From Chloracidobacterium sp. (GTDB taxonomy: Bacteria > Acidobacteriota > Blastocatellia > Pyrinomonadales > Pyrinomonadaceae), in contig JABTUB010000001.1 in NCBI GenBank assembly GCA_015075585.1, positions 310,001 to 374,000 on the forward strand: a DNA stretch of 64,000 nt. Reading direction: 5' to 3'. The notes under the pieces are model-generated. The model had not been told where the DNA came from. It made no database searches and saw only the letters and a list, made by a program, of their open reading frames with translations. Below are positions 28,462-34,069 of this stretch, piece after piece. The first letter of the stretch is position 1, and the number at the start of each line of letters is the position of its first letter. Both the position numbers and the translations under genes were made by a program.

Positions 28462-30888
28462 TCAGATGAAGGCGAAATCGAACTGGGCCTGATGAATATG
28501 CTTGTCTGATGTCAGATCGACGCTGCCGAGATATGCTTCGATCTCGTCAAGCACCTCACGTTCGTCGCCGCGAAATGCCGCAGCGACCTCAGGATGCACC
28601 CGCAGCGTCGTGTGGCGAATGTCATCAACCGACCGCGAGAGCCTACGCGCCTCCGCGAGTATCTCGTAGCACACCGTAATTGGCGATTTGATCCAACCCG
28701 AACCCTCACAGTAGCTGCACGGTGCGCACATCGTCCGCTCAAGCGACTGCTTGACGCGCTTGCGCGTCATAATGATAAGCCCGAAATCATTGAAGGACAG
28801 CACCTTTGTCGGCGAACGGTCTGATGCGAGAGCCTCCTGCAGCGCCTGCGAGACCTTGTGCCGATTGCGGCGGTCCTCCATATCGATCAGATCGAGCACG
28901 ATGATGCCGCCAAGGTCGCGAAGGCGTATTTGCCGTGCGATCTCCTCGACCGCTTCGAGGTTGGTCTTGACGATCGTATCCTCAAGACGCGCGTTGCCCT
29001 TGCCTACGAACTTGCCTGTGTTCACGTCGATCGCAACGAGAGCCTCGGTCTGGTTAATGACCAGATAGCCGCCGGACTTGAGCCAAACGCGCGGCTTTAA
29101 CGCCTTGTCTATCTCTTCCTGAACGCCGTAATACTCGAGTATCGGCTGCTCGCGGGTGTAGAGCTTTATGCGGTTGACCATTCGCGGCTGGATCATGTTG
29201 ATGAACTCGACCGTGCGTTGATATTCCTCGTCGCTGTCAACACGGATGGCCGTAAAGTCATCCGCAAGCTGATCGCGAAGGATCCGCTGAACGAGATCGA
29301 GGTCTTTGTGCACAAGCGACGGCGCCTTCTTCCTCTCGGCCCCCTTCTTTGAGTCGGCCCACATACGCACAAGGTAACGTGCGTCGTTTCGCAGATCTTC
29401 TTCGCCGACACCTATGCCTGCCGTGCGGACGATGAAGCCGCCAGTTGATACTTCAGGATCCTGGCTGATCCGCTGGATCATTCCGCGCAGACGGTTGCGC
29501 TCGTTGGCAGACTCGATCTTGCGTGAGACGCCGAGGTGGTCGATCGTCGGCATATAAACAAGGTAGCGGCCCGGCAATGCGATGTGTGATGTGATGCGGG
29601 CACCCTTTTTGGCGATCGGTTCCTTGGCGATCTGGACAAGTATCTCTTGGCCTTCACGCAGAAGGTCGCCGATCAACGGCTGCGGCCGTCGCTCACCGCG
29701 GTTGTCGCCGCGATTGTCGGTGCGGCCATCGCCGGTCTGTTTGTCGCGGCCCTTGCCTTTGCGGCTGCGGTCCTGATGCTTCTTGCCGTTGGTATCCGCT
29801 TTTGTTTCAACCACGGGTTCCGTGTTCGGTTCGGCATCTGTTTGCAATTGGATGACAGGCTCATGAGCATCAAGCTCAGACGCGTTCTCTTCAGCTTCGG
29901 CTATCACCTCATCAAGCTCAATTGCGAGTTCTGCGTCCGCCTTCGATTTGACACGGCGGCGTCCGCGTCCGCCGCGTCGTACTGACATTTCAGCCGTATC
30001 GGCAGGCTCTTTCACCGAGGCCTCCGCATCCTCGAGCGGCTCATCAACCTTCGCCTTCTTGGCCTTCGGCTTTGCGAATTTACCCTTCGCAGCAGCACGC
30101 TTTCCCGCGGGCTTCTTTTTCGGCGCCGGCTTCGTCTCAACTCCCTCAGCTTCTGTTTCAGCAGCAGCGGCCTTTTTGGTTCGCGTACGCTTTTTTGGGA
30201 CAGCGGCCGATTCCTCATCATCGGCGATCCGCTCGAATGATGCGTCCGCAGCAGCGTCCTTTATGATCGAACCGACCTCCGCCTCGGCAGTGCCTTCGAT
30301 CTCAAAGGAACCGACGGTTACCTTCTCGAACTGCGGCTCGGCATGTTCGCTCGGGGCGGCTGCCTCATCATCCGCGATGCGCTCAAAGCCGGAATGGTCA
30401 AAATCTATCTCGATCGGTTCGAGGTCTTCGATCGGTTCAGCGGACGGCTCGGACTGTTCGTAGTGTTCTTCTTGCGTATCGGAGCTTGATGCATCGGCAG
30501 TGTCCGTCGCAAGCGGTTCGGCACGCTCCTGAGCAGAATCCATCTGCTTTTCAAGCTCGATGCGGTCGCGCTCGACCTGATCGGTAGCCTCGCGTTTTGC
30601 TTGCTCGGCAGACGTCTTTTTGTTCTTATTCGCGACAATGCGTTCGATCTCTTCCTCTTCATCAAAGAAATCAGACACATAAAGGAACGCATCGCGTTCG
30701 AGGCCGATATCGACAAAAGCCGACTGCATTCCGGGCAGGACGCGCATCACGCGTCCCTTGTAAACATTGCCGACGACGCCGGCATTTTCTTCGCCGCGCT
30801 CGATGTAGAACTCGGTAACGCGGCCGTTGGTGAGAATTGCGATCTTCTTTTCGCGTCCGTTGACGCTGACGATCATCTCTTTGGACAT
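28462..30888 (-). CDS. RNase E/G family ribonuclease with a large insertion in its S1 domain
   Basis: 808 residues. The S1 domain opens with GRVMRVLPGMQSAFVDIGLERDAFLYVSD (residues about 45-75) and closes with LLREGQEILVQIAKEPIAKKG from about 404. Between them lie some 320 residues of low-complexity Glu/Ala/Lys/Pro sequence, which includes two copies of FERIADDE and basic patches (KKKPAGKRAAAKG, RGGRGRRRVK). The catalytic core has VAIDVNTGKF (Asp near 618) and IIVLDLIDM (Asp near 668), the magnesium ligands, and the zinc-link region CAPCSYCEGSG. It cuts single-stranded RNA and matures rRNA. The tail is short, as in RNase G, so the basic insertion may act like the C-terminal scaffold of RNase E. 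Confidence 0.9.
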   Translation of the reverse strand: MSKEMIVSVNGREKKIAILTNGRVTEFYIERGEENAGVVGNVYKGRVMRVLPGMQSAFVDIGLERDAFLYVSDFFDEEEEIERIVANKNKKTSAEQAKREATDQVERDRIELEKQMDSAQERAEPLATDTADASSSDTQEEHYEQSEPSAEPIEDLEPIEIDFDHSGFERIADDEAAAPSEHAEPQFEKVTVGSFEIEGTAEAEVGSIIKDAAADASFERIADDEESAAVPKKRTRTKKAAAAETEAEGVETKPAPKKKPAGKRAAAKGKFAKPKAKKAKVDEPLEDAEASVKEPADTAEMSVRRGGRGRRRVKSKADAELAIELDEVIAEAEENASELDAHEPVIQLQTDAEPNTEPVVETKADTNGKKHQDRSRKGKGRDKQTGDGRTDNRGDNRGERRPQPLIGDLLREGQEILVQIAKEPIAKKGARITSHIALPGRYLVYMPTIDHLGVSRKIESANERNRLRGMIQRISQDPEVSTGGFIVRTAGIGVGEEDLRNDARYLVRMWADSKKGAERKKAPSLVHKDLDLVQRILRDQLADDFTAIRVDSDEEYQRTVEFINMIQPRMVNRIKLYTREQPILEYYGVQEEIDKALKPRVWLKSGGYLVINQTEALVAIDVNTGKFVGKGNARLEDTIVKTNLEAVEEIARQIRLRDLGGIIVLDLIDMEDRRNRHKVSQALQEALASDRSPTKVLSFNDFGLIIMTRKRVKQSLERTMCAPCSYCEGSGWIKSPITVCYEILAEARRLSRSVDDIRHTTLRVHPEVAAAFRGDEREVLDEIEAYLGSVDLTSDKHIHQAQFDFAFI

Positions 30889-31366: not shown

Positions 31367-32776
31367 TCAACGCACGAAGATGCTTGGGACAGGGATGTCG
31401 CCCGTTGAGCCGAACTGTTTGATCAGAAGGCCGGCGGTCGAGCGTTTCACATACCAAGTGCTGCCGGTCGGACGGAACACGGCTGCGTCTGCCTTGCCGT
31501 CGCCGTCATAGTCGCCCGGCGAAGGCACATCGCCCATCGTCCCGAACTGATCCGCGTAATATGTCAGATTTTCGCTCCGAAGGATGTACCACGTTCCCCC
31601 TGATGTCCAGAATGCAACATCCGCCTTGCCGTCTCCCGTGTAGTCGGCAGGCACTGCCTTGTCCGTCGAAGAGCCGAACTGCGTTGCGAACACGCTGTTG
31701 TCGGAACTCTTCAGTATCCACCATTCGGCACCGTTAGCACCGTTGGGGCGGAATACGGCAATGTCAGCCTTGCCGTCGCCGTCATAGTCCGCTGCGACGG
31801 GTTTGTCGCCTGCCGCTCCGAAGCCTGTGATCGTAGTGCCGCCCGTTGTGTTGTTTATGTACCAAGTGGAGTTCGACGGACGGAACACTGCTGTGTCGGC
31901 CTTGCCGTCGGCATCGTAATCCGCAGGCACGGGCACATCGCCGCTTGCTCCGAACGGCGTTGCATAGTACGTCATATCCTCACTGCGGAGAACGTACCAA
32001 TAGCCTGTCGAAGGCCTCCAAAACGCCACATCAGCCTTGCCGTCGCCCGTGTAATCAGCCGCAACGACACTGTCTGTCGCCGCACCGAACTGTGTGGCGA
32101 ACACACCGTCATTCGAACTCTTCGATATCCACCACTCCGAGCCGTTCACTCCATTCGGCCGATAGATCCCGATATCCGTCTTCCCGTCACCGTCAAAGTC
32201 GAATGGTATTTCGAGCGGAAGGATGGTCGCACTTGTGTCATAGATCTGATCGCCGTTAGGCCCCGTGCCGTTGTTTGCCTGATTGCCTGATGCATAAAGC
32301 TTTATCGAGCCGACATTTGATGCCGGAGCCGTCCAATCGACTTGCCATGTCGCTCCGCCGGTTTGACCCGCAAAAGTACCCTGCGATGTATGCTCGGAAT
32401 ATTGGCGTCCGTTCTCGGTGATGATCTGCGTGTTGGCAGAAAGATTTGTAAAGCTGCCCGCATTGTTCGTGCCCGCAAGGGCCAACAGCTCATAACCCCA
32501 GCGTTTTCGCGTAGTGTCAGGCGATTGATGCTGCACGGTCACGTGATACGTGCGGCCGGGAAAATATTTGGCGGGAGCGATGATCGCAAATGTTCCGCCC
32601 GTGTGGGGATCAGTACTGTGGCACGCCGCGCAGTTCGATTCGTCAGGTGCGCTCGAAAAGCCCGCGGGCGGCCCTGCCGAGAGCATACTTGCTTTCGGCG
32701 CATCGAATAAAAGCCCGGCCAATCCCAGCATCGCAACTCCTGCGATGACGGCGATCTTCACCTTTTTCGTTATCAT
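31367..32776 (-). CDS. Secreted VCBS/FG-GAP repeat protein with N-terminal CxxCH domain
   Basis: 469 residues. After a signal peptide comes a domain of the choice-of-anchor V type, with GPPAGFSSAPDESNCAACH: the CxxCH motif (Cys49-His53) is that of c-type heme attachment, though a single such motif in this domain may not bind heme. From about residue 195 there are six repeats, each with a calcium-binding DYDGDGKAD loop (for example FDFDGDGKTD, ADYTGDGKAD, ADYDADGKAD) and W-rich strands, giving a beta-propeller typical of FG-GAP proteins. The product should be exported. GGAGG lies just before the ATG. Ligand unknown. Confidence 0.85.
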   Translation of the reverse strand: MITKKVKIAVIAGVAMLGLAGLLFDAPKASMLSAGPPAGFSSAPDESNCAACHSTDPHTGGTFAIIAPAKYFPGRTYHVTVQHQSPDTTRKRWGYELLALAGTNNAGSFTNLSANTQIITENGRQYSEHTSQGTFAGQTGGATWQVDWTAPASNVGSIKLYASGNQANNGTGPNGDQIYDTSATILPLEIPFDFDGDGKTDIGIYRPNGVNGSEWWISKSSNDGVFATQFGAATDSVVAADYTGDGKADVAFWRPSTGYWYVLRSEDMTYYATPFGASGDVPVPADYDADGKADTAVFRPSNSTWYINNTTGGTTITGFGAAGDKPVAADYDGDGKADIAVFRPNGANGAEWWILKSSDNSVFATQFGSSTDKAVPADYTGDGKADVAFWTSGGTWYILRSENLTYYADQFGTMGDVPSPGDYDGDGKADAAVFRPTGSTWYVKRSTAGLLIKQFGSTGDIPVPSIFVR

Positions 32777-33022: not shown

Positions 33023-34069
33023 ATGGCGTTAAAGTCTTTATTTAGTTTATTTTCCAGCGATCTGGCCATTGACCTCGGGACGGCGAACACGCTCGTCTAT
33101 GCAAAGGGGCGCGGCATTGTCGTCAGCGAACCCTCGATAGTTGCGATCAATAAAGTGACCAATCAGGTCGAAGCGGTCGGCCGCGATGCAAAGGAAATGC
33201 TCGGTCGCACGCCGGGAAATATAGTCGCTATCCGCCCGATGAAGGACGGCGTGATCGCGAATTTTGAAGTAACGGAAAAGATGCTCCAGCACTTTATCCG
33301 AAAGGCTCACAACGGCAAATCGTGGGTGCGTCCGCGTGTGGTCATCGGTATTCCGTCTGAGATCACGCAGGTCGAGCGCCGCGCGGTCGAGGATTCCGCG
33401 TATCGTGCCAAGGCCAGTGAAGTTTACCTTGTCGAAGAAGCAATGGCCGCGGCGATAGGTGCGGGCCTGCCTATAACCGAGCCGCATGGCAATATGGTCG
33501 TCGATATCGGCGGCGGAACGACGGATATCGCCGTTATCTCGTTATCAGGCATCGTATATTCGCGCGCCGTGCGGGTTGCGGGCAACGAGATGGACGAGGC
33601 AATTACGCAGTACATAAAGCGCAAGCACAACCTGCTGATCGGCGAGCGCACTGCGGAAGCCATCAAGATAGCGCTCGGCAGTGCCTTTCCGCTGGATGAG
33701 CCGCTCTCGATGGATGTGCGCGGCCGCAACTTGATAGAAGGCATACCAAAGACGATAACGATGACGGATGAGGAGATCCGCGAAGCGCTCGCCGACTCGA
33801 TCGCGACGATCATCAACGCCGTTCGCGTCGCCCTCGAGCGTACTCCGCCGGAATTGTCCGCAGATATCGTCGAGCGCGGCATCGTTCTTACCGGCGGCGG
33901 TGCGTTGCTTAAGAATCTCGACAAGCGTTTGATGATCGAGACCGGTCTGCCGGTCGTCATCGCTGACGACCCTCTCTCCTCGGTCGTGCTGGGCACGGGC
34001 AAGATGCTCTCGGATTTCGAGCTTCTCAAGCGTGTCAAGTGGGACAACTCGTTGATGACAGGAAGTTAA
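33023..34069 (+). CDS. mreB: Rod shape-determining protein MreB
   Basis: 348 residues, full length. Actin-fold motifs: [20 protein letters not shown] (phosphate 1), [16 protein letters not shown] (phosphate 2), and [16 protein letters not shown] (adenosine). It forms membrane-bound filaments that place wall synthesis along the cell. It starts the mreBCD-mrdA-rodA-mrcA cluster. A 246-bp space to the divergent VCBS gene holds its promoter; an AGGAA site lies somewhat far from the ATG. Confidence 0.97.

Follow-up and report, generated by a model that had tools for sequence, protein, structure and literature searches.

A proposed degradosome-like platform within the S1 domain of RNase G-type enzymes from Acidobacteriota

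In gammaproteobacteria, the C-terminal tails of RNase E are described in excerpts of two accounts (PMC4435900, PMC11964227) as disordered regions with repeats, conserved microdomains, and Arg-rich RNA-binding patches. Noncatalytic sequence also occurs inside the S1 domain: in excerpts of a further account (PMC4245959), alphaproteobacterial and plant RNase E enzymes are reported to carry charged S1 inserts of ~50-150 aa that are predicted to be disordered. The same excerpts describe the insert of Caulobacter crescentus RNase E as partly helical in the crystal and located in the predicted RNA site, where its acidic side chains may mimic RNA; they also report that an RNase E fragment (residues 1-274) containing this insert binds RhlB, as shown for the fragment and not for the insert alone, and that removal of the S1 insert from Arabidopsis chloroplast RNase E lowers activity (PMC4245959). 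RNase G is nonessential in E. coli, where RNase E is also present (excerpt of PMC4435900).

Here, a comparative genomic approach was applied to an RNase E/G gene found in a 64,000-nucleotide stretch of Chloracidobacterium sp. DNA (the window), whose nearest named records belong to Pyrinomonadaceae, Blastocatellia, and Acidobacteria; outside Acidobacteriota, the comparison covered E. coli and PDB entries such as Caulobacter 4oxp. The encoded enzyme carries an insert of ~325 residues at the same place in the S1 domain as Caulobacter RNase E (4OXP), and both inserts are charged and predicted to be disordered, the latter as excerpted for Caulobacter. However, the Caulobacter insert spans only ~60 residues between aligned ends, far fewer than the ~325 of the window's enzyme or the phylum's maximum of 707, and Caulobacter RNase E also has a C-terminal scaffold, whereas the window's enzyme has none. 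The S1 insert of Arabidopsis chloroplast RNase E likewise belongs to the shorter kind (~50-150 aa in the excerpted account, PMC4245959). The disordered scaffolds of gammaproteobacterial RNase E, as excerpted, are similar in having conserved microdomains, repeats, and Arg-rich patches, but they are located on the tail rather than in an S1 loop, and the catalytic domains belong to another group. E. coli RNase G (rng) shares with the window's enzyme the lack of a tail, the same C-terminal end point, and a gene location beside mreBCD; yet it is a 489-aa protein without an insert in a cell that also has RNase E, whereas the window's gene is the sole RNase E/G of its genome. The initial annotation had regarded the S1 domain as a new position for a scaffold. 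The position is in fact known in kind, given the shorter alphaproteobacterial and plant inserts and the RhlB-binding Caulobacter fragment (excerpts of PMC4245959); the Acidobacteriota enzymes, of RNase G type, combine this site with content resembling that of a tail. In the literature listings searched, no publication dealt with S1 inserts in RNase E/G from Acidobacteriota, and an earlier mention is possible in the 2015 review by Ait-Bara and Carpousis.

An RNase E/G enzyme with a split S1 domain

The gene occupies positions 28462-30888 on the minus strand as a single reading frame, uninterrupted by stops, that encodes an 808-aa protein with a giant S1 insert and is of RNase G type by gene order. 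The protein scores 466.5 bits against TIGR00757 (cut-off 325.95), and its catalytic region (aa 438-712; 28753-29577, minus strand) matches the RNase_E_G family PF10150 with E=6.6e-100. Residues D621, D666, C724, C727, R488, and T489 align with their E. coli RNase E counterparts and are invariant columns across 63 insert-bearing sequences, 61 of them from the host class. D621 and D666 are presumably the two catalytic aspartates, the CxxC pair 724/727 is taken to be the Zn-link, and R488/T489 the 5′ sensor. Thus, as judged from sequence, the catalytic domain, the catalytic aspartates, the CxxC motif, and the RT pair that define the RNase E/G family are all present. The RNase G model PRK11712 was matched up to position 487 of 489 at aa 806, which indicates that a C-terminal tail is absent, as the initial annotation had stated; only 3 residues lie beyond the last profile position, leaving no noncatalytic C-terminal scaffold of the RNase E kind. 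The PRK11712 score of 489.9 bits does not reach the equivalog cut-off of 594, and with an insert of ~325 aa the protein differs from the short RNase G enzymes that have no noncatalytic region.

Alignment to E. coli RNase E (2bx2) breaks off at aa 74 and picks up again at aa 403, and in the E. coli enzyme only ~13 residues separate the matching points. On the basis of alignments to 2bx2 and 4oxp, the first half of the S1 domain comprises aa 38-77 (30658-30777) and the second half aa 403-440 (29569-29682), with the insert between them at aa 78-402 (29683-30657, all on the minus strand). The ends at aa 77 and aa 398 align to residues 97 and 157 of 4oxp, which places the insert, by alignment, in the loop between S1 strands 3 and 4, as in Caulobacter RNase E. 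The insertion of ~320 residues within S1 that the initial annotation had placed at 29670-30650 is therefore real, with slightly different ends.

The insert has few order-promoting residues (WCFIYVL share of 13.5% vs 32.5% after the insert) and is strongly charged (42% vs 30% after the insert); it is rich in Glu, Ala, Lys, Asp, and Arg, with E and A the commonest, so the earlier description of a charged, partly basic block holds. Charge blocks as high as those of the window's insert were obtained in 0 of 500 shuffles, and the corresponding z exceeded 3 in 114 of 124 inserts. Directly after S1 strand 3 lies a conserved charged helix, delineated by model and conservation (aa 77-123; 30520-30660, minus strand), which includes an acidic run, DEEEE; few parts of the insert are as well conserved as this run and the helix. 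Further along the minus strand are a poorly conserved basic stretch rich in K, P, and A (aa 231-282; 30043-30198), an Arg/Gly box, MSVRRGGRGRRR, that is conserved in alignments (aa 301-312; 29953-29988), and an R/G/D/N-rich linker ahead of the second S1 half (aa 371-402; 29683-29778). Boxes of the Arg/Gly type were found in 101 of 124 inserts, as a raw count.

In the structure model of the window's protein (mean pLDDT 61, usable in parts), for which a PDB search puts RNase E first, aa 77-88 and 94-123 are helical, with pLDDT of ~80 at aa 101-120. Nearly all of aa 125-432 has pLDDT below 50. Parts of the S1 domain (aa 33-45 and 63-77) and aa 599-632 also fall below 50, and low model confidence is therefore weak evidence of disorder; the model of a relative with a full FERI module (see below) was likewise poor (mean pLDDT 48). 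Composition and the partial model together suggest that the insert is probably disordered.

Conserved islands, the FERI module and selection

Genus and class alignments revealed conserved islands amid drifting insert sequence: the charged helix after strand 3, the FERI module, LEDAEAS and EMAVRRGGRGRRR, and the R/G-rich end. The FERI module spans ~75 residues and has the form FER[IV]xD[DE] - G[ED]hhKDAxxQxxI - VGSL - [FL][EQ]R[IV]xD, with 9 invariant columns and a constant order of parts in 20 chosen sequences. In the window, it is located at 30208-30402 on the minus strand (profile E=1.3e-8 in its own genome), without the central KDAxxQ helix. The FERIADDE motif that the initial annotation had noted as used twice is indeed present in exact copies at aa 168-175 (30364-30387) and aa 218-225 (30214-30237), both on the minus strand. 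Across the class, the pattern FER[IVL]x[DE][DE] occurs 166 times, in 89 of 103 inserts, compared with a mean of 0.115 and a maximum of 1 in 200 rounds of shuffling of the class inserts.

When the 20 chosen modules were built into a profile and the 58 class genomes were searched with it, 56 gave a match at E up to 0.1, and 52 still did at E up to 0.001; there is one match per genome, and it always falls in the RNase E/G gene when contigs and frames are compared. At the threshold of 0.1, no other gene in the 58 class genomes was matched. The two misses are G260, in which the gene is truncated at a contig end, and G040, and matches in families f4 and f7 are weak and partial (E from 1e-5 to 0.1). 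In a local search, all 140 class proteins, a redundant set that contains the 20 training modules and the protein of G040, scored above the best decoy (6.2 bits), and none of 33 other inserts scored. The module is thus class-wide at the level of sequence comparison. The KDAxxQ helix core is present in 96 of 104 class inserts and in 0 of 20 others; it is missing from the inserts of the window, L141, L143, L150, L153, L155, L156, and L157. The window's species lacks it, though other members of the genus in the set keep it, and a frameshift was rejected as the cause, the other two frames there containing stops and no trace of the helix. Searches with the 20 modules gave no credible relatives in Pfam (best E 0.045, for one of the 20) or in the PDB (best E 0.72).

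Two further interpretations of the module were discarded. FERI as a general address tag is not supported, with the DNA pattern giving 2 hits in its own genome, both in this gene, and the backward control 1. As candidates for a membrane-targeting helix, three module helices fell below residues 565-582 of E. coli RNase E in hydrophobic moment and charge.

In family f15, which belongs to another class, the inserts carry a different motif: LPGE[ST] was found in 11 of 11 inserts, one to three times each, and in 0 of 113 other inserts. These f15 inserts (L161, L162, L188, L189, L191, L193, L211, L214, L216, L219, and L221) show one to three copies of an LPGE[ST][IL]SKY-like motif together with an RWRGRRGRRR-like box. 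The motif is a candidate docking motif of its own.

Pooled dN/dS was 0.02 for the catalytic part and first S1 half, 0.04 for the helix after strand 3, 0.07 for the FERI module, and 0.19 for the remaining insert, as calculated from 14 close, overlapping pairs with dS often near saturation. At the sequence level, these values indicate that the insert is under purifying selection and that its drift is constrained.

Distribution, descent and gene order

TIGR00757 matches were found in 177 of 197 genomes of the phylum and in none of the remaining 20; from among the matches listed, 113 genes from 58 families were extracted, families with weak or no matches being left out. S1 loops of at least 50 aa (50-707 aa) occur in 59 of the 113 genes and C-tails of at least 100 aa in 18, one of which is also N-terminally extended, and no gene of the 113 (58 families, among the matches listed) combines an S1 loop with a C-tail. 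Another 32 genes have neither loop, tail, nor extension, and four have an N-terminal extension only, as counted from the first Met with GTG and TTG starts left out. Long N-terminal extensions in genes L166 and L044, from other families (~480 and ~410 aa, respectively, counting from the first Met), add a third place at which noncatalytic sequence occurs; long upstream frames in genes such as L051, L057, L168, L169, and L180 were rejected as extensions for having no Met before the S1 part. Every extracted gene of the host class has an insert, of 251-552 aa, and the inserts of family f15 measure 451-707 aa. The initial annotation had held that an insertion common in the family and plainly without partners would speak against a scaffold: common it is, throughout the extracted class genes, and the class-wide FERI module argues that the insert likely has a partner.

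Trees were built on the catalytic part with the insert excluded. All inserts of at least 100 aa fall in a single clade, both in a careful tree of 85 rows (37 of 37 rows, support 100/96), from which 28 rows with long branches or near-copies were left out, and in a quick, wider tree (48 of 48 together, support 96). The 48-gene clade contains no short-loop gene, and in the quick tree loops of 56-92 aa occur mostly in the branch neighbouring it, suggesting stepwise growth of the insert. The tailed genes group with E. coli RNase E (17 of 17 together, 100/100, careful tree), and the window's enzyme lies outside this 100/100 group. E. coli RNase G also lies outside, on a long branch beside the tailed group, with its placement unsure. 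Therefore, the trees support exclusion from the RNase E group more firmly than assignment to RNase G, and the tie of the insert genes to RNase G rests more on gene order.

E. coli rng adjoins mreBCD. In the window, mreB (33023-34069, plus strand; 60.7% identity to the E. coli mreB region) lies 2.1 kb from the RNase gene on the opposite strand and is followed, up to 38634, by what we take to be mreC, pbp2- and rodA-like genes. The upstream gene (31367-32776, minus strand) encodes a protein with repeats of the form DYDGDGKAD, presumably FG-GAP/VCBS-like, and, close to the N-terminus, a single CAACH motif of haem type. Relatives of mreB, mreC, pbp2, and rodA were sought in flanks of ~8-10 kb on each side, some ending at contig ends, and were found near 22 of 30 non-tailed genes vs 0 of 10 tailed genes, two of the latter judged by frame length alone. 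The non-tailed genes comprised 8 of 12 insert genes, 5 of 5 middle-loop genes, 2 of 4 single short genes, and 7 of 9 non-tailed genes of two-gene genomes. Within flanks of up to 5 kb, mreB was found near none of 46 close named relatives (14 show another cluster gene), and the link to the mre cluster is therefore loose in the window's genus; wide flanks of two other members of the window's family contained no mre/rod cluster genes. The separation of the insert clade from the tailed group, together with mre/rod gene order, suggests that the enzyme is of RNase G type and grew a scaffold-like insert. The comparison with RNase E from which the initial annotation set out thus gives way to a place apart from the tailed RNase E group, and a relocated RNase E tail is supported by neither tree nor gene order.

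An RNase E/G match was found in all 60 relatives searched and a second such gene in none of them, some genes being cut by contig ends. In other insert-bearing families, RNase E/G is a single gene in 29 of 29 genomes, four of which were assessed through family mates; additional hits are S1-like pieces below 29 bits. In contrast, genomes with an extracted tailed gene showed a second RNase E/G match in 9 of 9 cases, two below cut-off. A scaffold is not obligatory where RNase E/G is present as a single gene: several families (f29, f37, f41, and part of f13) have such a gene with a short loop and no tail. Among 40 genomes of relatives, including the window's own, RNase Y was over its curated cut-off in none (weak matches in 25), PNPase was matched in all 40 (over cut-off in 37), and TIGR00649, which we take to be the RNase J family, was over cut-off in 36.

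Proposed role of the insert

The insert is moderately likely to be a platform next to the RNA groove on which partners dock and RNA is held. Conserved microdomains within a region judged disordered by composition and the partial model, the pattern expected of a degradosome scaffold, are found in it. The proposal of the initial annotation that the block gathers RNA or partners is upheld as far as its features go (composition, charge blocks, Arg/Gly box, conserved microdomains, and purifying selection), and a scaffold role is what these features may suggest. One or more protein partners specific to the class, with a helicase or an exonuclease as the obvious guess, would dock on the FERI module and on the helix that follows strand 3; the Arg/Gly box, which may bind RNA, and the basic blocks would hold RNA near the catalytic cleft. 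The enzyme would then work like a degradosome core, as RNase E with its tail does elsewhere.

The two main rivals to this reading can each hold alongside it. One treats the insert mainly as a gate: the helix after strand 3, with its DEEEE run, would occupy the RNA groove and bar or choose substrates, and the remainder would be a tether. The Caulobacter insert, partly helical, in the predicted RNA site, and with acidic side chains that may mimic RNA (excerpts of PMC4245959), offers a precedent, and the acidic run and helix here are well conserved and modelled as helical. Nevertheless, a gate is unlikely as the main role: it leaves the separate class-wide module downstream, the repeated FERI motifs, and the Arg/Gly box unexplained, and the long charged stretch has no equivalent in the aligned f15 sequences, which nonetheless retain inserts of 451-707 aa.

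The other rival holds that the insert binds RNA and forms condensates with no specific protein partners, in the manner of bacterial ribonucleoprotein bodies; it accounts for the charge blocks, the frequency of Arg/Gly boxes (101 of 124 inserts), and the low order-promoting content. It is improbable as a full explanation, however, as the 9 invariant columns of the FERI module (20 chosen sequences) and the fixed order of its parts exceed what a composition-driven region would need. Tolerated low-complexity growth with little function, to which the length range among extracted class genes (251-552 aa) and the poor alignment of much of the insert might point, is highly improbable given dN/dS of 0.19 even in the variable part and 0.04-0.07 in the helix and module (dS high, pairs overlapping) and a 48-gene clade devoid of short-loop genes.

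Extending the platform reading to the phylum, it is proposed tentatively, at somewhat less than an even chance, that Acidobacteriota lineages without RNase E rebuilt the degradosome on RNase G, with an S1-loop platform whose class-specific docking motifs (FERI; LPGES[IL]SKY) would bring partners and RNA beside the RNA cleft instead of on a tail. The phylum has both tailed and S1-inserted enzymes, never both in one sampled gene, and gene order places the inserted ones with RNase G. Should the insert recruit partners, the degradosome would have been built on different paralogues and at different places, and the FERI module provides a concrete bait for partner finding in a little-studied phylum.
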